In this document: piece after piece, positions 1 to 17,568 of the stretch | How the letters are laid out: every line of letters starts with the position of its first letter | Position numbering within the stretch: position 1 is the stretch's first letter | Assembly: GCA_020431945.1 (NCBI GenBank) | Contig: JAGQHH010000211.1 | Location: forward strand, 1 to 21,384 | Source: Cyanobacteria bacterium HKST-UBA02 | GTDB lineage: Bacteria; Cyanobacteriota; Vampirovibrionia; Obscuribacterales; Obscuribacteraceae | DNA length: 21,384 nucleotides | Direction: 5' to 3' | Translations under genes and position numbers: made by a program | Notes under the pieces: generated by a model | Seen by the model: the letters and a program-made list of their open reading frames with translations, nothing else | The model's database searches: none | What the model was told of the DNA's origin: nothing

Positions 1-940
1 GCTCGGTGACCGAGACGAGCATGATATTCATAATGCCGATACCGCCCACCAGAAGAGATATGCCGGCGGTGGCCCCGAGCAGGACTGTAAAGAGCCCAGT
101 CATCTTCTGGCTGGCCTCGAGCAAATCCTGCTGGGAGCGAAGATAGAAGTCATCCACCATGGGCGGTATTATCCTGTGTCTCAGCCTCAAAAGATTCGTG
201 ATCTGGAACTGAGCCGGCAATATATCGTCCTCTGTTTTCGCCTGTACCAGGATATATTGAACCGAGCGACCGGTGGCTGCATTGAAACCGAGCAAGCGAT
301 TGTAAGCGGTGGTGAGAGGAACGATCACCATGTCGTCCATATCCATGAAGCTGCTGCTGCCCTTTTTCTCCATTACTCCGATCACTTTGAAGAATTCGCC
401 TCTGATTAGAATATCCTTGCCTACCGGATCGACGCCGGACTCGAAGATAGCCTCGCTGACCGTCTGACCGACAACACAAACACGCTCGTTATGCTCGAGA
501 TCCTGCTCGTTGAAAAACCGACCTGACTCGACATGGAAATTGCGCACCTGGCAATAGCCGGGCGTGGTACCGACTACGGTGGTAAGCGAATTCTGCCCGC
601 CGTACTGGACTTGCAGCGGTGAATTGATGCCGGGCGCTACCGCCCCAACCGTCGGGCACATGTCTCTGATAGCATCTGCATCAGCCACGGTCAGAGTGGC
701 TGAGCTGCCCATACCCATGCTCACATGGCCGACACTGGCGGAGCCGGCACGCAGATAGAGGATATTGGACCCGAGGGCGCGTATCTGCCGGTCCGATTCG
801 GCCCTTGCCCCTTCGCCCACCGCCAGAAGAGCGATTACCGCGGCGATACCGAAAGTAATACCGAGAATTGTCAGGAAGCTTCGCAAACGATTGGCCAGAA
901 TACCCTGAAGAGCCAGCCTGGCCATCTCGATAATCGACAC
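1..940 (-). CDS. MacB-type ABC transporter permease, 3' end cut by window edge
   Basis: Inner-membrane permease of a MacAB/LolCDE-type ABC exporter. It works with the adaptor encoded just upstream and a separate ATPase. Translating from a GTG at 940-938 gives about 313 residues: a first membrane helix at about 15-40, a large periplasmic domain, then a helix whose end reads GGIGIMNIMLVSVTE, the hallmark MacB motif. The remaining helices lie beyond position 1. An AGGAGCG ribosome site (951-945) precedes the GTG, and the adaptor stop codon is only 14 bases upstream, so the two genes form an operon. There is no nucleotide-binding domain before the first helix, unlike E. coli MacB, so the ATPase must be another gene, probably further left. 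The substrate cannot be read from sequence. Family call is firm; the exact start is likely. Confidence 0.9.
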   Translation of the reverse strand, partial: MSIIEMARLALQGILANRLRSFLTILGITFGIAAVIALLAVGEGARAESDRQIRALGSNILYLRAGSASVGHVSMGMGSSATLTVADADAIRDMCPTVGAVAPGINSPLQVQYGGQNSLTTVVGTTPGYCQVRNFHVESGRFFNEQDLEHNERVCVVGQTVSEAIFESGVDPVGKDILIRGEFFKVIGVMEKKGSSSFMDMDDMVIVPLTTAYNRLLGFNAATGRSVQYILVQAKTEDDILPAQFQITNLLRLRHRIIPPMVDDFYLRSQQDLLEASQKMTGLFTVLLGATAGISLLVGGIGIMNIMLVSVTE

Positions 941-954
941 GCCAACCGCTCCTG

Positions 955-2436
955 CTAGTGCCTTCTGGGCATACCCATGCGTCTCATGCCCCGGCCGCTG
1001 TTGTTCGACTCCTGATAGCCGCGCTTAGCCAGCTCTTCTTTGGACAGCGAGGTAAGAACCAGGTCGCCTTCCTTGAGACCACTGATCACTCTGGTATCGG
1101 ATCCGGCTGTCCGACCTGCTTTTATAGGATGGAATTTGGGATTGCCTTCGGCATCAGGTACTAAAACCCCGGTTTTGCCTTTTTCAGAGATGACACATAC
1201 GGTCGGAACGATCAGGACATTTTCGAGCTTGCCGGCAAGAAATTCGGCATTGACGTTCATGCCGGACATGAGGTGCTCCTCAGGGTCATCTTCGATAGAG
1301 GAGTGAACCTCGAAGGTGGTGACGTTCTGGGTTACCACCGCCGCCGGTGCGATGAGAGTAACCTTCCCGTGAAACTCCTGGTCGGGATAGGCGTTGGCGA
1401 CGATTCTCGTGGGCTGCCCGGTCTTCAGATGCCCCATATCAGTCTCGGAGACATAGGCGATCACCTCGAGCCTGCTTGCCAGGGAGACTATCGAGCTCGA
1501 AGTAGCGGAGTCGGTAGCCGCGGAGGTGGTAGGCGTGACGATGGAGCCTTCCTCGGCGTACTCTTGCGAGATGATTCCATCGAAAGGCGCCTTGATCCTG
1601 GTGTCATTGAGCTGGCTCTCGAGATACTTGAGCTGGCCTCTAGCTTGCTCCCGGGCATGCTGTGCAGCACGGACGTCCTCTTCCCGGGAGCCTGCTTGCA
1701 GGAGGCTGAAACGCTGTTTGGAAGTATCCAGATCGGCCCTGGTCTGGGCGAGCCCGGCTACTGCCTGCTGCAATTCCTGCCTGGCTTGCTCCAGAGAAAT
1801 CTGGGAGACATTCTCCACGGTGACGGCATTGAGACGATCCTGATCCGAAACAGCCCCTTCCTGAGCGAGCTGTTTCATGCGCATGGCATTGGTCTTGTCC
1901 CGCACGAGCTCAGCTTCTCTGGATTTGACCAGGGCTTTTGCCCGGTTCACCGCCTGATTGGCGAATCTGACACCGTCCTCGCTCTTGCGCACTTGAGCCT
2001 CGGCCTCGGCAATCTCCTGGGGGCGGTTTCCATTGACAGCCTTGTCATAATTGGCGTCAGCCAGATTGAGGGCGGAGCGGGCAGCTTCCACCTGGCCGAT
2101 GAGATTGCTGTCGTCCATGAGAGCAATCAGCTCTCCCCTTTTGACCTTCTGCCCCTGGCTGACCAGAAGCCTGCGTATCAGGCCGGTGACTTTGGGGCTG
2201 ATCTTCACTTCGTGTTCGGGCTTCACCGTCCCGGAAGCCGAAATGGTCAGGTCCATGGAGCCGCGCTGCACCCTTGTGGTGATCTGTGCCTTCTCGCTCT
2301 TCGGAGAGCCGCCGAGTTGCTGGTAGGCGAAATAGCCTGCCACAGCGAACACCACCGCCACTATCAGAAGTACTAAAACCCTGGGAGCGCTCTTTCTGGC
2401 GACACCACCGCCTGTTTGCAGCTTCTCTTTGAGCAT
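955..2436 (-). CDS. MacA/HlyD-type periplasmic adaptor subunit of an efflux system
   Basis: Membrane-fusion protein that links an inner-membrane ABC permease to an outer-membrane channel. Of 493 residues, one membrane anchor lies at about 19-38. A biotinyl-lipoyl-like half motif (SPKVTGLIRRLLVSQGQKVK, about 80-99) is followed by a long Ala/Glu/Gln-rich alpha-helical hairpin (about 112-275). The second lipoyl half starts at TRIKAPFDGIIS (about 279-290), and beta-barrel and membrane-proximal domains end near 470. The hairpin is longer than the MacA average. The tail is Arg/Met/Gly-rich (GMRRMGMPRRH). The permease starts 14 bases after its stop. The start used is ATG at 2436-2434, preceded by a weak GAGAA; another upstream ATG is out of frame. 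It is transcribed divergently from the response-regulator gene, which may control it (inference). Confidence 0.92.
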   Translation of the reverse strand: MLKEKLQTGGGVARKSAPRVLVLLIVAVVFAVAGYFAYQQLGGSPKSEKAQITTRVQRGSMDLTISASGTVKPEHEVKISPKVTGLIRRLLVSQGQKVKRGELIALMDDSNLIGQVEAARSALNLADANYDKAVNGNRPQEIAEAEAQVRKSEDGVRFANQAVNRAKALVKSREAELVRDKTNAMRMKQLAQEGAVSDQDRLNAVTVENVSQISLEQARQELQQAVAGLAQTRADLDTSKQRFSLLQAGSREEDVRAAQHAREQARGQLKYLESQLNDTRIKAPFDGIISQEYAEEGSIVTPTTSAATDSATSSSIVSLASRLEVIAYVSETDMGHLKTGQPTRIVANAYPDQEFHGKVTLIAPAAVVTQNVTTFEVHSSIEDDPEEHLMSGMNVNAEFLAGKLENVLIVPTVCVISEKGKTGVLVPDAEGNPKFHPIKAGRTAGSDTRVISGLKEGDLVLTSLSKEELAKRGYQESNNSGRGMRRMGMPRRH

Positions 2437-2650: not shown

Positions 2651-3364
2651 ATGTCATCGCAATCATCCAGCACGCTAAAAGTCGTGGTCGTGGACGACCA
2701 CAGCATCGTCAGAGTCGGACTGAGGATGCTTCTCGATACCTGGTCCGAGATCGAGCTGGTTGGTGAAGGCAAAGACGGTGTCGAGGCCATAGAGCTGGTG
2801 GAAGCGCTTTCGCCTGATATAGTCCTGATGGACATCGCCATGCCGACCATCGACGGCATCGAGGCCTCTCGCAGAATCCGAGCCTTCAATAAAGATGTCA
2901 GAATAATCATGCTCACTTCTCACACGGACATAAAGGTGATCCAGGCCTCCCTGGCAGCCGGCGTGAACGGCTACTGCCTCAAGGATGTCAGCGACGATCG
3001 TCTCAAGAGAGCGATCCTGTCCGTGGCGGAAGGAGATGTCTGGCTGGACGCCCGAGCCAGCAAGGATATTTTGCGTATAGCCTGCGGAGAGCAGTCGACC
3101 GATACAAAAGAGATATCCGCCGGTGCCGAAAAGCTCGAAGAAGAGGGAGCCGAGACAGAAGGCAAGACCTATGGCAGTCTATCCAGCCGCGAGATGGAGG
3201 TTCTCCAGCTCCTGGTGCAAGGTCTCACCAATAAAGAGATAGGCAAGAAACTCTTCATAACCAGGGACACCGTCAAGACACATATTCGCCATATCATGGA
3301 AAAGCTGGCAGTCAGCGACCGCACCGAAGCAGCCGTCAAAGCGGTCCGCTGCAATATGGTCTGA
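2651..3364 (+). CDS. NarL/FixJ-family response regulator (REC + LuxR-type HTH)
   Basis: Cytoplasmic DNA-binding response regulator of 237 residues. The N-terminal receiver domain has the acidic pair D15-D16, phospho-acceptor D61 in DIVLMDIAMP, T89 and K111. An unusually long acidic linker (about 145-172, rich in Glu) leads to a LuxR/GerE helix-turn-helix (about 175-234; SSREMEVLQLLVQGLTNKEI, then TRDTVKTHIRHIMEKL). All phosphorylation residues are present, so it should be an active receiver. An in-frame TTG at 2633 would add six residues; neither start has a strong ribosome site and I prefer the ATG. It is the first gene of a signalling cluster with a receiver-kinase fusion and a hybrid histidine kinase, the likely phosphate donors. 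Targets are unknown; the divergent efflux operon and its own promoter are candidates. Confidence 0.93.
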   Translation: MSSQSSSTLKVVVVDDHSIVRVGLRMLLDTWSEIELVGEGKDGVEAIELVEALSPDIVLMDIAMPTIDGIEASRRIRAFNKDVRIIMLTSHTDIKVIQASLAAGVNGYCLKDVSDDRLKRAILSVAEGDVWLDARASKDILRIACGEQSTDTKEISAGAEKLEEEGAETEGKTYGSLSSREMEVLQLLVQGLTNKEIGKKLFITRDTVKTHIRHIMEKLAVSDRTEAAVKAVRCNMV

Positions 3365-3443
3365 CAGAAATATCACCCACCCGGGAAAGCTTGTCGCCTC
3401 GAGGGTCGATGCCTGTACATGCTTTCGATGCCATATTGGTATG

Positions 3444-3449
3444 AGGAGG
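3444..3449 (+). promoter_or_regulatory. strong ribosome binding site deciding the start of the receiver-kinase gene
   Basis: A perfect AGGAGG lies 8 bases before the ATG at 3458. An upstream in-frame ATG at 3419 has no such site, so the shorter protein is favoured. Confidence 0.8.
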
Positions 3450-3457
3450 CAACCGCC

Positions 3458-5092
3458 ATGCATACTGCTAGCGCCTTACAGGCAGATACTGCACCCGCCA
3501 CCAGACCGATCTCGATCCTGGTAGTCGAGGATCAGGAAGTTCTCAGACTGGGACTGAGATTGAGTCTAAGCGACGCCGACGACATCGTCATCGTGGGCGA
3601 GGCGGGTGATGGTCCGGCGGCAGTGCGCATGGCGGCCGAGCTCCAACCCGCCCTGATCCTCATGGATATAGGTCTGCCGGGCTTCGACGGTGTGGTAGCC
3701 ACCAAGAAAATCAAAATGGACCAGGATGCAAGAGTTCTGGTCTTGTCCAGCCACAGCGAGGAGAAATCCATTTATGCAGCCCTGGAAGCCGGAGCCGACG
3801 GATACTGTCTCAAGGACACGTCGAAGAACCAGCTCATCTCGGCGATCAGATCAGTGGCCCAGGGCGGGACATGGCTATCCAACGATATCGCAGAGAAGAT
3901 GTTCCAGTCACTCCGGGCAGTGGATCCGGAAGCGACCAATCAGCACGCAGCCCTCAACACGCTCGAACTCCGGATTCTCAATTCGATTTTCGAGGGCTCG
4001 AACATGATAGACATCTGCCAGGAGCTGAATCTGTCTCAGGAGGAAGTGCTGGGCTACACTACAAGAGTTCTACAAAAAATAGCCGTCAAAAAACCTGCCG
4101 AAGACGGCAATGATTCGGGCAAGAAAAGAAGAATCACCGGCGAGCACGTGCTCTCGAGAATCTGCAGCCGGTGCTACGAGCATTTGCCGCTCGATTCCGA
4201 AGAGTGCCCCTTTGACGGCTCCGCAGCTGATATCGACGAGCTTGTGGGAACAGTCTTCGCCGATCGATACGAGATTCTCTCGGTTCTCGGATCGGGATCC
4301 GGAGGCACCGTCTATAAGGCCAGACACCGATTCATGCACAAGCTCGTGGCAATCAAACTACTGCATGGCGAGCACCTCAAAGATCTGGACCTGCTCAGGC
4401 GGTTCAGGCAGGAGGCGACATCATCCTCTGTACTCCAGCACCCGAACATCGTCAGTGTCCTGGACTTCGGCTTTTCCAGCCAGGGAGAGCCTTTCATGAT
4501 CATGGACTATCTCGACTGCTACTCCCTGGCCACTATTCTCGAAGGGAAGAGCTATCTGGAACCAGGTGAGGCAATTCCAATTTTCTTGCAGATCTGCGAC
4601 GGTCTCGAAGTCGCTCATCAACACGGCATCATTCACAGGGACTTGAAGCCAGGCAATATACTGGTCTCCGGCTTTGGAACCGAATCCATAAACGTTCGGT
4701 TGGCTGACTTCGGAATCGCCAAGATAACCAGACCCCTGGTAGAGGGTGATCTGGTCAAGACGGATATCGGGCAGGTGTTCGGTAGCCCACTCTATATGAG
4801 CCCGGAGCAATGCCGGGGCGAAGACCTGGATCCAAGCTCGGACATCTTTTCCATGGGCTGCGTCATGTACGAGACACTTGTCGGTCACCCTCCGGTGGTA
4901 GGCAAGAATGCAGTGGAAGTAATGTACAAACGAACCACGGAGAAGACTCCTCACATCGGCGGCACCGAGCGTGGTGCCACTCTGCCTGCCCTGCTCCAGG
5001 AAGCAGTAATGAAGGCCCTGAGAGACGAAAAATACGATCGCTATAGACGAATCGGCGAATTGAAGACACTGCTCACCGGCCTCGTGTTCTGA
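3458..5092 (+). CDS. receiver domain-Ser/Thr protein kinase fusion
   Basis: A 544-residue cytoplasmic protein joining two-component and Hanks-type signalling. Domains in order: receiver (about 18-135) with E24-D25, phospho-acceptor D70, S97/S98 and K119; a divergent LuxR-like helical segment (about 166-212); a small metal-ribbon-like motif with C236, C239, C250 and D253; and a complete protein kinase (about 270-542). Kinase motifs are the Gly loop LGSGSGGTVY (277-286), VAIK lysine K300, HRDLKPGN (393-400), DFG (417-419) and SPE (448-450). Nothing essential is missing, so both receiver and kinase should be active. No membrane segment or PASTA repeat is seen. Phosphorylation of D70 probably gates kinase activity (inference). 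It lies 93 bases after the response regulator and 16 bases before the hybrid kinase, on the same strand. The helical segment may no longer bind DNA. Confidence 0.93.
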   Translation: MHTASALQADTAPATRPISILVVEDQEVLRLGLRLSLSDADDIVIVGEAGDGPAAVRMAAELQPALILMDIGLPGFDGVVATKKIKMDQDARVLVLSSHSEEKSIYAALEAGADGYCLKDTSKNQLISAIRSVAQGGTWLSNDIAEKMFQSLRAVDPEATNQHAALNTLELRILNSIFEGSNMIDICQELNLSQEEVLGYTTRVLQKIAVKKPAEDGNDSGKKRRITGEHVLSRICSRCYEHLPLDSEECPFDGSAADIDELVGTVFADRYEILSVLGSGSGGTVYKARHRFMHKLVAIKLLHGEHLKDLDLLRRFRQEATSSSVLQHPNIVSVLDFGFSSQGEPFMIMDYLDCYSLATILEGKSYLEPGEAIPIFLQICDGLEVAHQHGIIHRDLKPGNILVSGFGTESINVRLADFGIAKITRPLVEGDLVKTDIGQVFGSPLYMSPEQCRGEDLDPSSDIFSMGCVMYETLVGHPPVVGKNAVEVMYKRTTEKTPHIGGTERGATLPALLQEAVMKALRDEKYDRYRRIGELKTLLTGLVF

Positions 5093-5108
5093 CCTCCGGA
5101 GTTTAGCC

Positions 5109-6626
5109 ATGGCGAAAACAAGAGAACTGACAGCAGAAGCTGAGATGGAGAAGGAGTTGGATATCATCTCCAGAGCCTTCGGCATCACGCTTCCGGATCT
5201 AGTAGAGCAGATCAAGACTCTGCTTGCATCGGAGCAGGAGAAACAATCGGATCAACAGGGACTGGATGAAGCGATCACAAGAGCGCACCAGTTACGGGGC
5301 TCCGCCGGAGCTTATGGATTCACCGAAGTCAGCCTGACCGCCGGCATTCTCGAGGATCAGCTGATTCTTCTCAAGCAAGGCATAGTCAGCGATACAGACA
5401 GAATCGCAGGCAGTGTCGTTGCCGCTCTGCATCTCCTTGAAAGTCAATGTCGAGGAATTTCGCGTAATCTACTCGACCAACCCGAACGAGAGGAAACCGA
5501 ACCATCTGCTGACTTCGAAACAATCGAACAGACCGATCAAACCGACATGGTTCTGCTCGTCGATGATGATCCTGCCTTTGTCAACTTCGTTCGCACTGTA
5601 CTTACTACCGGAAACGAGCCTACCAGGGTCATCTCCGTAGACAGGCTGGCCGAGGCTCGGCTCCTTCTCGAGGATATGAAACCGGATGTACTTCTGCTCG
5701 ATCTCGGCTTGCCCGATAGCCAGGGACTGAATACTTTTCTCGATATCCGAGAACGAGTAGAGGATATTCCGGTCCTCATTCTCTCAGCTCTCAACGACAC
5801 AAGGGTGGCGGACAGGGCAGTCGCATGCGGAGCCCAGGACTATCTGATCAAGAGCCGTCTCTCGAAAAGCGCTCTAAGAAGATGCGTTCGCTACGCTAAA
5901 GCGCGCTTCCAGGTAGAGCGGAGCGCCCACCGCCTCAGGGCCATAGAGGACTTCACAGCCACTCTCGCACACGACTTGAAAGTGCCGGTCCAGGCCATGG
6001 AGCGGATCACCCGACATATACTTGTCCAGAATCAACTTCCGGATGAAATGAGCGAGACCATGAGAATCCTGCACAGCTCCAATCAGAGAGTGCTCACCCG
6101 CCTCGAGGATCTCCTGGAGCTCTACAGCCTGGAATTCGGATCGGTGAGACCGGATCTGATAGAATGCGATATCACGTCGTTACTCGAAGAGTGCATTGAA
6201 TCAAAACGACCCGACCTCGAGCGCCGAGATCTCAGTTCCGAGCTGACCTCGACAGGCACCACGCCTTTCCTGACTGATTCGCTGCTCCTCAAAAAGATCG
6301 TCCTCGAACTGATCGAGAATGCATGCAAATTCGCCGATCCCGGTAGTGCGGTCAGTCTCGATCTGGAAGCCGATGAGACGAAAGTCTCACTTACTGTTAC
6401 ATCGAGGGGCCAGACTATTCCGAAAACACAATTGCGAAGCCTCTTCAAGTCATTCTGGCGGGGCACTCCCGGAGTCTGTTACGTTCCGAGCACAGGCACC
6501 GGTCTTTACTATTGCAATCAAATAGCCAGGATCCTGAGCGGCTCCATGAGCTGCACCAGCAACGATGGTACGACTTCATTCAAGGTATTGCTTCGTGCCG
6601 GTGAGAATTCCACACAGCAACACTGA
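5109..6626 (+). CDS. HPt-REC-histidine kinase hybrid
   Basis: A 505-residue soluble hybrid sensor kinase. An N-terminal HPt domain has phospho-His H60 in AHQLRGSAGAYGF. A receiver domain (about 146-260) has D152-D153, acceptor D198 in DVLLLDLGLPD, S226 and K248. A HisKA domain has H288 in LAHDLKVPVQ, and a HATPase domain follows with N box ELIENACKFA (400-409) and G2-like GTGLYYCNQIA (463-473). The expected DxGxG box is replaced by SRGQTI (432-437), so the adenine-contacting Asp is absent; ATP binding could be weakened. No membrane helix or sensor domain is evident, so input must come from a partner or through the receiver. The order HPt first, kinase last is unusual. The ATG at 5109 follows CGGAG (5097-5101). 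It is probably co-transcribed with the two regulators upstream. Confidence 0.92.
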   Translation: MAKTRELTAEAEMEKELDIISRAFGITLPDLVEQIKTLLASEQEKQSDQQGLDEAITRAHQLRGSAGAYGFTEVSLTAGILEDQLILLKQGIVSDTDRIAGSVVAALHLLESQCRGISRNLLDQPEREETEPSADFETIEQTDQTDMVLLVDDDPAFVNFVRTVLTTGNEPTRVISVDRLAEARLLLEDMKPDVLLLDLGLPDSQGLNTFLDIRERVEDIPVLILSALNDTRVADRAVACGAQDYLIKSRLSKSALRRCVRYAKARFQVERSAHRLRAIEDFTATLAHDLKVPVQAMERITRHILVQNQLPDEMSETMRILHSSNQRVLTRLEDLLELYSLEFGSVRPDLIECDITSLLEECIESKRPDLERRDLSSELTSTGTTPFLTDSLLLKKIVLELIENACKFADPGSAVSLDLEADETKVSLTVTSRGQTIPKTQLRSLFKSFWRGTPGVCYVPSTGTGLYYCNQIARILSGSMSCTSNDGTTSFKVLLRAGENSTQQH

Positions 6627-6664: not shown

Positions 6665-7621
6665 ATGAAAGCCGCAGCTAGATTTCTGACGATTATCCTT
6701 ACTGTCCTGACCCTGGCATTACCGATGCCACCAGCCCTGAGCCAGACCGAGAGCTCAGGGAGCAAGCCGAGGGTGGCTCTCGCTCTCGGAGGCGGCGGCG
6801 CCCGCGGTGCCGCCCATGTAGGGGTCCTCGAAGTCCTGGAGAAGGAGGGTCTCAAGCCCGACCTGATCGTGGGCAACAGCATGGGGGCCATTGTCGGAGG
6901 GCTCTATTGCGCCGGCGTTCCTCTTTCCGAAATCGAGCACATCATGGAATCCGGCGAGATCAAAAAAGCATTCAAGCCCGTGCCTGTCCCGGTCCAGATC
7001 ATGAAGAAAGCGATCGGGAAGCTCGCCTTCTGGAGAGAAAAGGAATATCCGGGCTTCTACTCCGGCAAGGCTCTGGAAGACTTCGTCAACGATCAGGTCG
7101 ATGAGGACAAACGCTTGATCGAGAATCTCGACTCTCCCTTCGCGGCGATTGCCGTAGACCTCACCGACGGTCAGGCCTATCGTCTCACCAGGGGAAACCT
7201 CGGTCGAGCCGTTCGAGCCAGCTCCAGCGTACCCCCGATATTCAAACCCGTGGAAGAAGATGGTCATGTCTATGCCGACGGCGGGATCAGAGCCAATCTT
7301 CCGACCTTCCCGGCAAAAGATCTCGGCGCCGACGTGGTCATAGCCGTCAATGTGGATGAAGAGCTCGCCCGGGTAAACAAGGACGAACTCAAGTCATACG
7401 GACGTCTTGCCGACCGACTGTCAACGATACTGCTGGCAGTGCGAGACAATTTCCATGAGACCCGGGCCGACCTGGTCCTTCGCCCCGAAGTCACTGGAAT
7501 CTCTCTGCTCTCCATCGAGAACGAAGACTATCAGAAAGCCATCGAGGCAGGACGGCAGGCAGCCAGGAAGAATCTCGACTCGATCAGAGAACTCTACGCC
7601 GAAAAAGTGGCGGCCAGATAA
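6665..7621 (+). CDS. exported patatin-like phospholipase (RssA/NTE family)
   Basis: Predicted lipid acyl hydrolase of 318 residues. A Sec signal peptide (about 1-26, ending PPALSQ) directs it out of the cytoplasm. The patatin fold shows the oxyanion loop GGGGARG (42-48), nucleophile elbow GNSMG with S72, and the DGG dyad with D205, so the Ser-Asp dyad is intact. Substrates in this family are phospholipids or other acyl esters; the actual one cannot be told. A strong GGAGG (6654-6658) sits 6 bases before the ATG. It lies 38 bases after the hybrid kinase on the same strand and could be the last gene of that transcript. It converges with the alpha/beta-hydrolase gene, with only eight bases between the stop codons. 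Confidence 0.93.
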   Translation: MKAAARFLTIILTVLTLALPMPPALSQTESSGSKPRVALALGGGGARGAAHVGVLEVLEKEGLKPDLIVGNSMGAIVGGLYCAGVPLSEIEHIMESGEIKKAFKPVPVPVQIMKKAIGKLAFWREKEYPGFYSGKALEDFVNDQVDEDKRLIENLDSPFAAIAVDLTDGQAYRLTRGNLGRAVRASSSVPPIFKPVEEDGHVYADGGIRANLPTFPAKDLGADVVIAVNVDEELARVNKDELKSYGRLADRLSTILLAVRDNFHETRADLVLRPEVTGISLLSIENEDYQKAIEAGRQAARKNLDSIRELYAEKVAAR

Positions 7622-11070: not shown

Positions 11071-11622
11071 TCAGTTGTTTGGAATATTGCGGACCAGTTT
11101 GCGCCCTTCGGCACTGTCCTTGAAGCTTGCCTCGGCAAGAGCCTTGGCCTTGCGAAGGCGCTTATTGATCCTGCCCTTCAGAAAGGCGTTCACAAGAAAA
11201 CGCGGCACCGGCAGCCCGGCATCGACATAAGACGAGATTTTGAAATTGGTCTTGTTCTCTCCCACAGTGGAGAGTTTCCAGTCCCCTGTAAAAGCTTTGA
11301 CATGCTCGGATTTGATCAGATCGTATTTGAGAATCTCATTCTCTTTGATCCTGATTTTGATAAGCATCGACACCGTACCCATAAAAGGTATCGATGGAAA
11401 TTTTTCCTCGATTATCGCTTCATTCGAATCTGCTTCTCTTTTCTTGAATTTAAAATCGAATTTCTGATCATCGGTTATGGTCTTCCAGACCACCGGACGG
11501 GGAGCATTGATGACGATGCTCGAGACCACAGGCTTGTGCTCGTGATTCGCAAAAGCAGGCGAAGCCGACAGGAGAGCTCCTGTTACAAGAGACACAAAAA
11601 TCGTTGATCGAATTAATTGCAA
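11071..11622 (-). CDS. exported SRPBCC/START-like protein
   Basis: A 183-residue protein with a clear Sec signal peptide (about 1-25, ending SPAFA). The mature part has the helix-grip pattern of the SRPBCC (polyketide cyclase/START) superfamily: a starting strand VVSSIVINAPRPVVWKTITD (32-51) and alternating strands (GTVSMLIKIRIKEN, WKLSTVGENKTNFKISSYVD), then a long C-terminal helix (about 145-170). Such folds bind hydrophobic ligands in a cavity, so lipid or small-molecule binding in the periplasm is plausible. No catalytic residue can be named. The start is a TTG (11622-11620) preceded by a purine-rich GGAGAAGGGGGG; the closest upstream ATG is out of frame. It lies 61 bases after the LRV-repeat gene on the same strand. 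Confidence 0.75.
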   Translation of the reverse strand: MQLIRSTIFVSLVTGALLSASPAFANHEHKPVVSSIVINAPRPVVWKTITDDQKFDFKFKKREADSNEAIIEEKFPSIPFMGTVSMLIKIRIKENEILKYDLIKSEHVKAFTGDWKLSTVGENKTNFKISSYVDAGLPVPRFLVNAFLKGRINKRLRKAKALAEASFKDSAEGRKLVRNIPNN

Positions 11623-11646
11623 CTCTGCCGCCCCCCTTCTCCATAA

Positions 11647-11652
11647 ATTATC
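11647..11652 (-). promoter_or_regulatory. candidate -10 box for the SRPBCC gene
   Basis: The minus strand reads GATAAT, five of six matches to consensus. It would give a leader of about 18 bases that includes the purine-rich ribosome site before the TTG start. The -35 (TTGCGC at 15-base spacing) is poor. Confidence 0.28.
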
Positions 11653-11675
11653 GCTTTATGAACCGGGGCGCAAGG

Positions 11676-11698
11676 GGTAGCGGCTACGGACCGCTACC
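11676..11698. repeat. perfect 8-bp stem-loop at the end of the LRV-repeat gene
   Basis: GGTAGCGG (11676-11683) and CCGCTACC (11691-11698) form a perfect inverted repeat with a 7-base loop. The loop contains the stop codon of the LRV gene (minus strand). No T-run follows on either strand, so it is not a typical intrinsic terminator. It may stabilise the 3' end or pause ribosomes. Confidence 0.45.
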
Positions 11699-12343
11699 GA
11701 ATCCCTCCGGCGATCCTCGCAGCTCGCCCACTGCTGCCTCGAAAGAAAGATTTCCCGATCTGATTCGGGATTGCAGTTTGAGAGCACGCACAACCGTATC
11801 TCTGGTGAGCAAACTTTCCCTGACCAGAAGAAAGCCGAGATTCACCTTCTCCCGACGAGCAAGTTCCACAAGACCCGGAATCCTGCCTTCCTGAAGTAAT
11901 CCTGCCGCCACCAGGAGCTCGCCGAGCCTGGCCACCAGACCGGGCTCGTGCACATAGCCTCGAGCCCGCAGATGGTGCTCGAATTCCAGGCACTCCAGAC
12001 TGCGCCTGGCAAAATCACTGACATATGGATTGCTGTCCTCCAGGAGTCTCAGCAGATATTTCTCCGGTAAAGACGTCTCCTCCGCCAGAGACAACCTGAC
12101 ATCTATGTCAGGATCGCAACAGAGCCTTTCCAGGAGCTCCTCCGGAGCCGAACTGTTACAGGCAATGCTTGCCCGCACGTCCGGATGGGGATCGTTTACC
12201 AGCTCCTTCAAAAGAGAAACAGGGGTGGCAGGATTCTCCGCCAGCCGCCGCCTCATCTTGAAGTCCCCGTTCCGGTAGATCTTCCATAAAATTCCGGCAG
12301 GAGCCTGCGGATCCCCTGCCACTATATAGTCTTTGATTTGCAC
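11684..12343 (-). CDS. LRV/HEAT-like repeat protein with MshEN-like C-terminal domain
   Basis: A 219-residue soluble protein of unknown role. Residues about 28-125 form four or so 24-residue helical repeats of the leucine-rich-repeat-variant type, visible as LAENPATPVSLLKELVNDPH followed by related units containing DVRASIACN and DVRLSLAEE. Residues about 138-208 contain two related halves (LGELLVAAGLLQEGR; LGFLLVRESLLTRD), resembling the N-terminal MshEN/T2SSE module of secretion ATPases, some of which bind cyclic di-GMP. The start chosen is GTG 12343-12341, behind GGGAGGTAGG; an upstream in-frame GTG at 12391 gives an unlikely MVVVV start. A structured region with an intrinsic terminator lies 110-190 bases upstream on the same strand and may control it. 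Protein-protein scaffolding is the best guess. Confidence 0.75.
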   Translation of the reverse strand: MQIKDYIVAGDPQAPAGILWKIYRNGDFKMRRRLAENPATPVSLLKELVNDPHPDVRASIACNSSAPEELLERLCCDPDIDVRLSLAEETSLPEKYLLRLLEDSNPYVSDFARRSLECLEFEHHLRARGYVHEPGLVARLGELLVAAGLLQEGRIPGLVELARREKVNLGFLLVRESLLTRDTVVRALKLQSRIRSGNLSFEAAVGELRGSPEGFGSGP

Positions 12344-12354
12344 CTTGCTACCTA

Positions 12355-12360
12355 CCTCCC
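12355..12360 (-). promoter_or_regulatory. ribosome binding site deciding the LRV-repeat gene start
   Basis: The minus strand reads GGGAGG, continuing TAGG, about 7-11 bases before the GTG at 12343. It lies inside the longer reading frame that begins at 12391, and favours the shorter protein. Confidence 0.55.
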
Positions 12361-12419
12361 AGCTGTCCGATTCAGCGACAACAACAACCACTACTAAAGG
12401 GAGCTAACTGGTTATGCCA

Positions 12420-12533
12420 GTAATAGGTCAGCCGGTAACACCGACTCTTGAAAAAGATGACGAGGGAGGTCATCCCTGAACCTCCCCCGTCCATCAACCG
12501 CATTGTAAGTAGCCCGCGAAGTCTACCTATTAC
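12420..12533 (-). ncRNA. structured RNA element (leader or small RNA), unknown class
   Basis: This holds most of the structure in the 303-bp gap between the LRV gene start (12343) and the small membrane-protein gene (12647). A perfect 9-bp inverted repeat, GTAATAGGT (12420-12428) and ACCTATTAC (12525-12533), closes a domain containing a 12-bp stem with one mismatch (12459-12470 with 12480-12491). A small 6-bp hairpin lies near 12433-12447. On the minus strand the long stem is followed by a T-run, as in attenuators and riboswitches, and the LRV gene starts about 110 bases downstream. I do not recognise a known riboswitch or tRNA. Pairings are seen; RNA function and strand are inferred. Confidence 0.4.
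12451..12491 (-). terminator. intrinsic terminator pointing left
   Basis: Reading the minus strand, a 12-bp stem with one mismatch (arms 12491-12480 and 12470-12459) and a 9-base loop is followed three bases later by TTTTT (12455-12451). This is a classic rho-independent terminator. It could end transcripts of the GIY-YIG operon that read antisense to 12647-12976, end a small RNA, or act as an attenuator before the LRV gene. On the plus strand no T-run follows the stem. Confidence 0.65.
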
Positions 12534-12609
12534 GATGTTGCCCTACGAAGATAGACAGCAGCATCCCCCGACATAGTTATTCTTAATATGGGCCGGAGAT
12601 GCAAAGAAG

Positions 12610-12637
12610 TTGAAATGATTGTAAAAGCCTTTAGAAT
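12610..12637 (+). promoter_or_regulatory. sigma70-type promoter for a probably leaderless mRNA
   Basis: TTGAAA (12610-12615), a 16-base spacer and TAGAAT (12632-12637): each hexamer matches consensus at five of six positions. The expected start site is about 12643-12646, at or within three bases of the ATG at 12647, leaving no room for a ribosome binding site. Confidence 0.55.
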
Positions 12638-12646
12638 TTCTTCCTT

Positions 12647-12976
12647 ATGAGCAGGCTCAAGGTTATCAAAGAGCTTTTCAACTGGTTCCTCAACCAGTTT
12701 CCTGATTCGGGCTTGATTGCCATGGCTGTCATGGCCTCTGGCTTTGGAATTCTCTTGTTCCTTCATTTTATTGGCGGAAAAGAAGCAGCGCCCGGACAAA
12801 CGGTGCGTGCGCAGGCACCGGCGCCGGTCGTGCACCACCATCACTACTATTACTATTATCCGAACGGAAATGGTCAGTACACCGAGCACTATGTCAGGAG
12901 CCGTTTCGGCGAGCCGGACAGACCGGCTTCCGGAGGCAACTACTCATTCGCCTCCGGCCAGGCGTCGGCTTATTGA
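12647..12976 (+). CDS. small single-span membrane protein with His/Tyr-rich segment
   Basis: A 109-residue protein that I do not recognise. A short, partly basic, amphipathic N-terminus (1-20) is followed by one hydrophobic helix (about 22-43), a Pro/Ala linker and a run of four His and five Tyr (63-71). A Gly/Asn/Ser/Tyr-rich tail ends ASAY. The His run could bind metal and the Tyr run could be an adhesive or phosphorylation site; both are guesses. The ATG directly follows a good promoter and has no Shine-Dalgarno sequence, so the mRNA may be leaderless. Its last 7 bases overlap the 3' end of the convergent GIY-YIG gene. The promoter, the helix and lack of internal stops support it as real; no family is assigned. 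Confidence 0.65.
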   Translation: MSRLKVIKELFNWFLNQFPDSGLIAMAVMASGFGILLFLHFIGGKEAAPGQTVRAQAPAPVVHHHHYYYYYPNGNGQYTEHYVRSRFGEPDRPASGGNYSFASGQASAY

Positions 12977-14604: not shown

Positions 14605-17568
14605 GTGGAGAAAACGACCCTCACTCGCGACGACTGGCTCGACCAGCTCCGGTTCCAATATCCGCTCAGGAAGTACCAGAGCGATATTATCTCGCTTTGC
14701 GATCGAAAGCTGAAAGACGGCGAAAAAGAGCTCCACATAGTCGCTCCGCCGGGATCGGGCAAAACCATTATCGGTCTCGAGATCGTCAGCCGATTCCGCT
14801 GCCCGAGCCTGGTAGTCTGCCCCAATACCACAATCCAGTCGCAATGGGCGGACAAGCTCGGTCTCTTTTTAGAACCCGAATTCGCCGAGCTCGCCAGGCC
14901 CGCCATAATCGGAACCCACGAAGACAGACCCCTCAAACCGATCACGGTGCTTACCTACCAGGTCCTTTCGGTGCCGGGCAAAGAGCAGGAGTTTCTCGAA
15001 AGCCACGCCCTCAAGGAATGGACCGACGAGATGGCGCAGAGCCGCTCTCTGAGCCGGGGCGAAGCCGAGGTCCGCATCCTCGACCTGAAAGCCAATAACA
15101 AGAGCGCCTACAAAAAAGAGATCAGCCGTCATATCACCCGCCTGCGTCGCAAGCTAACCGACGTCATGACCCTGGAGGAGATCCTCCACGAAAACGCCCT
15201 GGGCCTGGTGCAAGCCCTCAAGCGCCAGGGATGCGGTCTGGTCATCTTCGATGAGTGCCACCATCTCACCGATTACTGGGCTTCGGTGATGATACACCTG
15301 GTACGCCGCCTGGACAACGTCACCGTGGTCGGTCTCACCGGCACGCCGCCCGAGGCCAAGACCGGCAAGCAGAAAGCACGCTATCTCACCCTTGTAGGCG
15401 AGATCGATTTTCAGGTGCCCACACCGGCCCTGGTGAAAGAAGGAGGGCTGGCGCCCTTTCAAGATCTCGTCTATTTCACCGAGCCCACCAGTGAAGAGCG
15501 CGATTTCCTCAAAGAAAAGCACCAGGATCTGCACGAGATTATTCAAAACAAAAACTTCCGCGAATTTGTCGAAAGCCAGAAACAATTCGTCGAGCGCAAA
15601 CCTGAGCTCGCCATGGCGCTTGCCCGCTACTTCTACGCGGGTAAATTGCCTCTGCCGGGCGACCTGGTGGTTTCGGAAGCAGTGAGACAGTCTCCGCAGC
15701 TCGATGACTGGCTCGAGCTCCTCGAGGACTTCGCTCTCAATCATCTCAAAACCAGCGCCGACAAAGACGACCATGAGCTGCTCAAAACAATCGGCAGCGC
15801 TCTCAAGAAAATCGGCTTCAGCCTGTCCGAGAGAGGGATCAGATCCACCGCCTCGCCGGTGGACAGGGTGCTCGCTTATTCCCGGAACAAGAGCCGGGCC
15901 GTCGCCACCATTCTCGACACTGAATACGCGACTCTCGACGATCGTCTCAGGGCCCTCGTAATCACGGACTTCGAGCGCATGTCCGCAACCGTGCTCAAAT
16001 CGGTATCGACAGTGCTCGATGCCGATGCCGGAGGAGCCATCGCCGTGGTAAGAGAGCTCATCGCCCACCCGGTGTCGGCATATATCAATCCCTGCCTGGT
16101 GACCGGCTCTCTGGTTCTAATCGACAGCCGCATCACCAGGACTTTCACCGAGACGGCCAGACGTTATCTCGAAGAAGCCGGCGAAAAGACCGAGCTCGAG
16201 CTCGCCCCCTTCGAAGCCGATCCCGGTCTCACCAGTGTCAGCCTCCCCGGGGGCGACTGGAGCACAAGATTATATGTAGGTCTGCTCACCAGCGCTTTCG
16301 AGACCGGAGTGACCAAATGTCTGGTGGGCACCAGGGGTATCTTCGGAGAGGGATGGGACTCCCAGCAGCTCAATACAGTGATCGACCTGACCACCACCAC
16401 CTCGCCGGTCTCGGTCAAGCAACTCCGGGGGAGGGGCATCAGGCTCGATACCAGCAATATCAGCAGCGCCTTGGCCGACCGCAAAGTCACCAACAACTGG
16501 GATGTGGTGGCCATCGCCCCGGAGCTCGAAAAGGGGCTGAACGATTATTCGCGATTCGTGCGCAAGCATCAGGGCTATTTCGGCATAGCCGACGACGGCC
16601 AGATTGAGTGCGGCGTCGGTCATGTCCATCCTGCTTTCTCCGATCTGACACCGGCAGAAGTCTTCGCATCGCTTCAGTCTTTCAATGAGGAAATGCTGAA
16701 AAGAGCTCTGGTCAGAGATCAGATCTATGAGCTCTGGAAGGTAGGAAAGCCTTATGCCAACCGGCAGCTGGGCTGCATCGAGATAGCCGCTCTGCCGGCT
16801 CCCGGCGCGCAGCCGGCCCATGTTCGTGCCGGCAGCACCTACCCCGAGCATGCCCGGCAGTTGCGTCAGAGACTCCACCGCGCCCTGGGGATCTATATAG
16901 CAGGCGGGATTGTGGCTTCCATCGCCCTTGCCGGAGTGCTCATGGACCCGTTCCTGTGCCTGGTATCGTCGATGGTGATCGTCACCATGTCGACCATTCT
17001 CGGTCTGAGACAGAGAGCGATGGTGAAAGACGAGCTCGAGGAGTTTGTCGTGGTCGAAGCCTCCGGCGATCGAGCCGGCTGCCTCTCCAGCATCGCCAGA
17101 GCCGTGCTCGATTCCCTCATTGACAGAAATTTCCTCCCCGAGGATATCGAGCCGGAAGATATCGTAATCAGCCAGCGAAGCCATGACAATTACAGGGTAT
17201 TTCTCGACGGAGCCAGCGAAGAGCACACGAAGATCTTCGTAAAGGCCTTCGAGGAAGTCATGGCTCCGGTGACGAATCAGCCTTATCTGATTCCGCGCTA
17301 CAGTTTCAACCTGGAAGGTCTGAATGAGAAGGCGAGAAAAACCTTTTTCAACCTCTACCTGACCGGTCGAGCCGAGCCCGATATAGCGGCATACCATGCC
17401 GTACCCAGGCTCCTTGCCCGGTCCGAGAAAGGCAGAGAGTCTTTCGAATTCGCCTGGAACCACTATGTCAGTCCTGGCTTTGTCGTAGCCACGCAAGAGG
17501 ATCCGGTAATCCTGCAAAAATATTTCGGGCTCGGTCCGAGTCTTGCCGAGAGATTATTGTGGGATTAG
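14605..17568 (+). CDS. SF2 DEAD/DEAH-type helicase with a C-terminal transmembrane hairpin
   Basis: A 987-residue superfamily 2 ATPase. RecA-like domain 1: Q-motif-like LRKYQSDII (21-29), Walker A APPGSGKT (47-54), motif Ia VVCPNTTIQSQW (70-81), Walker B DECH (216-219), motif III GLTGTPP (243-249). Between it and the second RecA domain lies a long helical insert (about 295-540). Domain 2 has GTRGIFGEGWDS (575-586) and motif VI QLRGRGIR (606-613). After this come two adjacent hydrophobic segments (about 761-779 and 782-800) separated by MDP, then a soluble alpha/beta domain (about 810-987). Complete motifs predict an active ATPase acting on DNA or RNA. Membrane segments in an SF2 helicase are unusual. 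The start is GTG at 14605 with poor ribosome site. The M28 peptidase gene follows 13 bases later. No methylase or nuclease partner is visible. Confidence 0.9.
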   Translation: MEKTTLTRDDWLDQLRFQYPLRKYQSDIISLCDRKLKDGEKELHIVAPPGSGKTIIGLEIVSRFRCPSLVVCPNTTIQSQWADKLGLFLEPEFAELARPAIIGTHEDRPLKPITVLTYQVLSVPGKEQEFLESHALKEWTDEMAQSRSLSRGEAEVRILDLKANNKSAYKKEISRHITRLRRKLTDVMTLEEILHENALGLVQALKRQGCGLVIFDECHHLTDYWASVMIHLVRRLDNVTVVGLTGTPPEAKTGKQKARYLTLVGEIDFQVPTPALVKEGGLAPFQDLVYFTEPTSEERDFLKEKHQDLHEIIQNKNFREFVESQKQFVERKPELAMALARYFYAGKLPLPGDLVVSEAVRQSPQLDDWLELLEDFALNHLKTSADKDDHELLKTIGSALKKIGFSLSERGIRSTASPVDRVLAYSRNKSRAVATILDTEYATLDDRLRALVITDFERMSATVLKSVSTVLDADAGGAIAVVRELIAHPVSAYINPCLVTGSLVLIDSRITRTFTETARRYLEEAGEKTELELAPFEADPGLTSVSLPGGDWSTRLYVGLLTSAFETGVTKCLVGTRGIFGEGWDSQQLNTVIDLTTTTSPVSVKQLRGRGIRLDTSNISSALADRKVTNNWDVVAIAPELEKGLNDYSRFVRKHQGYFGIADDGQIECGVGHVHPAFSDLTPAEVFASLQSFNEEMLKRALVRDQIYELWKVGKPYANRQLGCIEIAALPAPGAQPAHVRAGSTYPEHARQLRQRLHRALGIYIAGGIVASIALAGVLMDPFLCLVSSMVIVTMSTILGLRQRAMVKDELEEFVVVEASGDRAGCLSSIARAVLDSLIDRNFLPEDIEPEDIVISQRSHDNYRVFLDGASEEHTKIFVKAFEEVMAPVTNQPYLIPRYSFNLEGLNEKARKTFFNLYLTGRAEPDIAAYHAVPRLLARSEKGRESFEFAWNHYVSPGFVVATQEDPVILQKYFGLGPSLAERLLWD

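Follow-up and report, generated by a model that had tools for sequence, protein, structure and literature searches.

A stretch of 21,384 nucleotides from Cyanobacteria bacterium HKST-UBA02 (contig JAGQHH010000211.1; the whole stretch is called the window below) carries a recurrent two-component module with an attached receiver-bearing Hanks kinase. The module comprises a NarL/LuxR-type response regulator, a fusion of a receiver domain (REC) with a Hanks-type Ser/Thr kinase (RSTK), and a histidine kinase (HK) in which a histidine phosphotransfer domain (HPt) and a REC precede the catalytic part. We give roughly even chances to a two-output two-component circuit, in which regulator and RSTK would both stand under the REC-controlled HK. 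The source is an uncultured, non-photosynthetic relative of the cyanobacteria, and the nearest named proteins are assigned to Candidatus Obscuribacterales, Melainabacteria or Cyanobacteria bacterium.

Domain make-up of the three proteins

The genes and domains are as follows; residue numbers run from the open reading frame (ORF) starts at 2633 (regulator), 3419 (RSTK) and 5109 (HK).

2651..3364, +, NarL/LuxR-type response regulator, 237 aa (ATG 2651; ORF open from TTG 2633); Pfam REC and GerE
2681..3016, +, regulator receiver, D67; Pfam REC, E 8.8e-27
3176..3343, +, LuxR/GerE helix-turn-helix (HTH) of the regulator; Pfam GerE, E 1.1e-21
3458..5092, +, RSTK, 544 aa, with REC, decayed LuxR HTH, Cys-rich ribbon and Hanks kinase; Pfam, alignment and model
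3515..3850, +, RSTK receiver, D83 and K132; Pfam REC, E 7e-22
3959..4087, +, degenerate LuxR HTH of the RSTK; helices predicted, GerE below cut-off
4163..4216, +, CxxC...CPxDG segment of the RSTK; alignment and model
4268..5083, +, Hanks-type kinase domain, K313, HRD D408, DFG D430; Pfam Pkinase, E 2.7e-47
5109..6626, +, HPt-REC-HisKA-HATPase histidine kinase, 505 aa; Pfam
5178..5411, +, HPt domain, H60; Pfam, E 2.2e-7, helical bundle in the model
5550..5855, +, kinase receiver, D198 and K248, with OmpR-like face residues D244/R258; Pfam REC, E 6e-19
5946..6134, +, HisKA/DHp, H288; Pfam, E 1.4e-5, 25.5 bits, just below the cut-off of 26.9
6276..6596, +, HATPase_c, N404, G1 Asp replaced by Ser432; Pfam, E 1.9e-14

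ORF and Pfam analysis bore out what a sequence-only reading of this DNA had described, namely three adjacent plus-strand genes holding between them one HK, three receivers, one HPt and one Hanks kinase, with no membrane segment or sensor domain in any of the three proteins (Pfam; peak 19-residue mean hydropathy 1.37). The regulator and RSTK genes are separated by 93 bp (54 bp to the upstream ATG) and the RSTK and HK genes by 16 bp, and no terminator-like site was found on the plus strand in these gaps. The RSTK start at ATG 3458, which is preceded by GAGGAGG, matches that of the database copy P0004; the ORF is open from ATG 3419.

The regulator has the receiver residues D67/K117 and a HTH that retains TVKTHIRH..KL with an intact recognition helix, as in NarL/FixJ regulators. 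The corresponding segment of the RSTK is helical in the model, but its recognition-helix residues are gone and it no longer qualifies as a NarL/FixJ HTH; the GerE remnant scores 19.8 bits (E 6.2e-4) against a cut-off of 23.5. Both this remnant and the CxxC...CPxDG segment, which may be zinc-ribbon-like, were absent from the sequence-only reading. The RSTK carries the Hanks VAIK Lys, HRD Asp and DFG Asp in all 47 rows of its alignment, in which D83, K132, K313, D408 and D430 are likewise invariant, and PknB-type kinases are the nearest solved folds of its kinase domain (Foldseek). The RSTK resembles a NarL regulator in which a Hanks kinase has taken over as output.

Recurrence of the module in related genomes

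Relatives were sampled as all 53 genomes in the order of genome G004. A kinase query (E<=1e-40) gave 51 matches across 27 of these genomes, and 48 of the 51 REC-HK loci were retrieved as stretches of 6-20 kb (left out: G045:C323, G021:C274 and G041:C43). A wider kinase query (E<=1e-50) over 382 class genomes, drawn from a larger group, found 14 positive genomes, all within the order set. Among the 80 loci listed by a pattern scan of contigs, most were other kinases, the kinase patterns being generic, and one of the 102 Ser/Thr kinase ORFs at the listed loci had a two-component domain (locus L001). The trees of kinases (69 rows), RSTKs (60 rows) and regulators were quick ones with some long branches, and only the 38-row RSTK tree was built with care.

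In the kinase tree, 14 HPt-fused REC-HKs including that of the window formed a clade with a Shimodaira-Hasegawa-like approximate likelihood ratio test (SH-aLRT) support of 100; one of its rows, P0134, is a fragment (HPt end only), and another, P0133, duplicates the protein of the L148 row. The sister group consisted of 13 REC-HKs (SH-aLRT 99). All three parts occur together at L148 (genome G019) and L149 (G021). Because they do recur together in relatives, the refuting case named in the sequence-only reading, neighbours that do not keep together, does not arise, but the recurrence is narrow (2/53 genomes), and in both relatives the regulator lies on the opposite strand to the other parts. At L148 a further receiver, of 152 aa, separates the RSTK from the kinase, and the L149 kinase comprises two overlapping ORFs, HPt-REC (11073-11903) and HK (11882-12685), which could be a split gene, a broken gene or an assembly error. 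Further co-occurrence is probable on one database contig, since an RSTK cluster (P0005, 81% identical) and an HPt-REC-HK cluster (P0126, 59%) have the same sources and in both the longest contig measures 69,494 bases.

The regulator is a steadier companion of the kinase. Among the matches listed from the 53 genomes, the best two to the window regulator were the neighbours of HPt-REC-HK in G021 and G019. In the regulator tree (46 regulators from the retrieved loci, picked partly from the best matches among those listed), the window regulator clustered with those of L148, L149 and L211, the last at a contig edge (SH-aLRT 97). A NarL regulator is also present at 12/12 assessable sister loci and adjoins the kinase at 10 of them; the locus L177 ends at the kinase, at a contig end. 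Ten of the 12 sister loci encode a separate HPt protein, and five of those ten (L162-L166) also a hybrid HK-REC; in two hybrids, Pfam found GAF-PAS (L166) and PAS (L164) ahead of the HK. Fused and separate HPts align with each other (hhalign E 7e-19), which is not proof of orthology. P0127 aligns as REC-HPt-REC-HK, as if neighbours had fused, and no HPt appears in its precomputed Pfam list. Since P0127 joins a REC-HPt to a REC-HK, the HPt of the window kinase may have come from a neighbouring REC-HPt gene.

Of the three parts, the Ser/Thr kinase is the least constant. An RSTK adjoins the kinase in the window and at L148, L149, L166 and L176, and is one gene away at L195. Three of these loci (L166, L176 and L195) have a REC-HK without a fused HPt, and that of L176 belongs to a different REC-HK branch. 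L166 (G005) encodes a REC-HK and an RSTK in overlapping genes, a REC-HPt, the GAF/PAS hybrid kinase and a NarL regulator. At 6/12 of the other RSTK-seeded loci (L150-L161), a histidine kinase lies no more than 2 kb away.

The careful RSTK tree was reduced from 60 to 38 rows by thinning the database rows, removing identical copies and dropping L176 (long branch). An approximately unbiased (AU) test on this tree rejected a single clade of window-type and L148/L149-type RSTKs (p-AU 1.8e-6), a group that had been defined after seeing the quick tree. The window RSTK falls among RSTKs located elsewhere in genomes, apart from those of L148/L149, and the L166 RSTK occupies a different region of the RSTK tree. 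Because the window and L148/L149 RSTKs do not form one clade, the tree is most simply read as showing more than one gain or exchange of a receiver-kinase by the module; differential loss from an ancestral pair is also possible.

Several other arrangements were seen at these loci. The G019 module is flanked by complex I (nuo-type) genes and a GT20 trehalose-phosphate-synthase-like gene, and a GT20 gene also adjoins the G021 module (one flank examined). At L156 (6726-10899), L157 (6522-10632) and L161 (252-4365), successive genes encode an RSTK, a protein of about 218-275 aa and a histidine kinase of 601-624 aa, which is another recurrent RSTK-kinase pairing, in three genomes. A 2246-aa STK-HK-REC protein of HstK-like order (L177, 1493-8233, minus strand) adjoins a sister REC-HK in G047. 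With 150 candidates scored in each genome, the RSTK query had 117 matches at E<=1e-45 in G019 and 124 in G021, showing large Hanks kinomes.

A candidate two-output circuit and its alternatives

From the domains, residues, gene association, phylogeny and structural likeness observed, we infer the phosphotransfer steps, their direction and the activation of the RSTK. An upstream hybrid kinase encoded elsewhere would phosphorylate the HPt at H60, which would hand the phosphoryl group to D198 in the receiver of the same protein. The phosphorylated receiver would then rearrange the dimer and free the catalytic domain, as in LvrB, and H288, once phosphorylated, would serve two receivers: that of the regulator (D67), for transcription, and that of the RSTK (D83), in which a kinase domain would stand in for DNA binding as output. 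The branching into transcription and Ser/Thr phosphorylation proposed in the sequence-only reading is supported, as one kinase with two NarL-type output receivers would fit it. Regulator and RSTK receivers of the same locus are 42% (window), 46% (L148), 45% (L149) and 40% (L166) identical, and the kinase receiver shares 21-28% identity with the output receivers in the window, L148 and L149 and 22-28% in L166. The "full phosphorelay" of that reading (HK to REC to HPt to response regulator) needs revision, for the REC looks like a regulatory receiver of the LvrB type.

In the LvrB work in Leptospira (PMC13269768), an upstream kinase phosphorylates the REC of LvrB, the catalytic domain is released, and a separate receiver protein is then phosphorylated. 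The likeness to LvrA-LvrB-LvrC as given there lies in a REC directly before DHp-CA and the lack of any other sensor, and would extend to a kinase switched by phosphorylation of its REC, an upstream kinase and a receiver-bearing output. It differs from the present case, in which an HPt stands before the REC, there are two candidate outputs, one of them a Ser/Thr kinase, and the upstream kinase would lie outside the window. In the model of the window kinase, the REC lies directly before DHp, and one helix (253-307) runs from REC alpha5 into it. D198, K248, H288 and N404 are invariant across the 14 HPt-clade and 13 sister kinases, and the switch residues D198, K248, S/T226 and Y/F245 occur in 27/27. 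On the basis of their 14-residue spacing, D244/R258, equally invariant (27/27), were assigned to one salt bridge of the two that PMC9981736 gives for the OmpR type; the second bridge is not conserved. The FATGUY motif of intermediary receivers (PMC9981736) was not seen in the kinase receiver, as judged by eye. LvrB (8vc9) tops the Foldseek list for the kinase and, alone among 24 PDB sequences, has a best matching stretch that spans both REC and HK (147-501). Because an HPt precedes the REC, which departs from the REC-DHp-CA architecture, we say that the kinase may work like LvrB and do not file it as a plain member. This likeness makes the order of sensor, HPt, REC, activated kinase, and then regulator and RSTK the likelier one.

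Several observations, besides the narrow recurrence given above, weigh against the proposed circuit. LvrB ranks only 18th of 24 by profile E-value and is not singled out by VIA-align. The AlphaFold kinase model, built on 18 sequences, has an overall predicted template modelling score (pTM) of 0.44, and for this reason its domain packing was not used. The sequence-only reading had all phospho-residues in place; this holds for the receiver Asp and Lys residues, HPt H60 and HisKA H288, but is weakened by the HATPase G1-box Asp, which is Ser432 in the window kinase and Asn in most relatives. At this position the HPt clade has Asn in 10/14, Ser in 3/14 and Thr in 1/14 kinases, and the sisters have Asn in 12/13 and Ser in 1/13. 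E. coli CusS, a working kinase, has Asn there (VENPGTPI), a precedent that covers Asn but not Ser.

The G1-box Asp usually contacts adenine, and its replacement by Ser or Thr in this clade and by Ser in one sister would suit a histidine kinase that acts mainly as a phosphatase or scaffold, with weak ATP binding via Ser432 and receivers charged by other kinases. We hold this to be improbable: the N box, the G2 glycines and the catalytic His are invariant in 27/27 kinases, and most relatives have the Asn of CusS. A classical internal relay from H288 to D198 to H60 and on to D67 and D83, with the HPt as exit port and a domain order that is merely unusual, is a somewhat stronger competitor, though still an unlikely one. 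Every phospho-residue for it is present and conserved, and the fusion of HPt and REC to the kinase favours an intramolecular relay. The REC, however, is N-terminal and continues through a modelled helix into DHp as in LvrB, and L178, L200, L191 and L201 pair a REC-HK with a NarL regulator without an HPt in the retrieved stretch. Least probable of all, in our judgement, is that the genes are chance neighbours and a different kinase acts on the RSTK. The genomes are kinase-rich, as the RSTK-query matches in G019 and G021 attest, and most relatives' modules have no RSTK; yet full REC+STK matches are few (at least 4 in G019 and at least 2 in G021), which by our own estimate puts chance adjacency at about 0.1% per locus (assuming about one gene per kb), and modules whose kinases and regulators are related harbour RSTKs of two distinct lineages.

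The two-output circuit can be extended, more tentatively, to a bacterial counterpart of the yeast Sln1-Ssk2 logic, in which the HPt would be the intake port of a REC-controlled HK and the second output a Hanks kinase derived from what was once a LuxR regulator, the whole having perhaps been assembled repeatedly in Obscuribacterales as one module took up different receiver-kinases.

Flanking genes, known parallels and significance

A patatin-like phospholipase gene (6665-7621, plus strand) with an N-terminal hydrophobic stretch begins 38 bp past the kinase gene and could be co-transcribed with it; as a fourth conserved member it had no match in 20 relative loci (8 of them kinase-seeded). On the other side, 2-2436 (minus strand) encodes part of a MacB-like permease and an HlyD/RND-type adaptor, divergent from the regulator across the intergenic region 2437-2650 and a possible target of it. 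A 987-aa ResIII/XPB-like helicase (14605-17568, plus strand) lies 9.5 kb from the window RSTK, and its homologues lie near RSTK genes at L156 (2164-5694; G042) and L157 (11680-15312; G040). Our own profiles detected no further two-component genes in the window, and Rfam and tRNA scans of it gave no match. Promoter-like sites were at chance level (3 found, 2.2 expected); terminator-like matches were above it (12 against 4.4), with 8/12 on the minus strand and most of them intragenic.

The unorthodox kinases BarA and ArcB also unite HK, REC and HPt in one protein, but in the order HK-REC-HPt, whereas the Pfam order here is HPt-REC-HK. The yeast Sln1-Ypd1-Ssk1-Ssk2 pathway is a His-Asp relay with a Ser/Thr kinase at its end; it divides receiver and kinase between two proteins, and we draw an analogy only and do not claim homology. 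The nearest published mirror image found is PA3346 of Pseudomonas aeruginosa (PMC12189002), in which a receiver governs an enzyme of Ser/Thr phosphorylation and a histidine kinase provides the stimulus; that enzyme is a phosphatase, the one here a Hanks kinase. HstK of Anabaena, known here from a title in PMC2176072, brings a Hanks kinase together with a histidine kinase in the cyanobacterial line; it is one polypeptide, whereas here the receiver-kinase fusion is encoded separately from the histidine kinase. Eukaryotic proteins that mix both kinase kinds include rice CHARK (PMC7814049) and Candida CHK1 (PMC9069115), to judge by literature listings. No literature title was found on a receiver-Hanks-kinase fusion beside an HPt-REC-HK, in a search that left most subscription journals uncovered and is no proof of absence.

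According to PMC12189002, the best-known contact between the histidine and the Ser/Thr kinase systems of bacteria is cross-phosphorylation. If the proposed circuit is true, a receiver domain brings a Hanks kinase under the direct control of a histidine kinase. The HPt-REC-HK order raises the question of whether a REC-controlled kinase can take its input from an HPt, and the recurrent gene set names the partners, making such cross-system signalling testable with three proteins. The finding bears on the large kinomes of the non-photosynthetic relatives of cyanobacteria.
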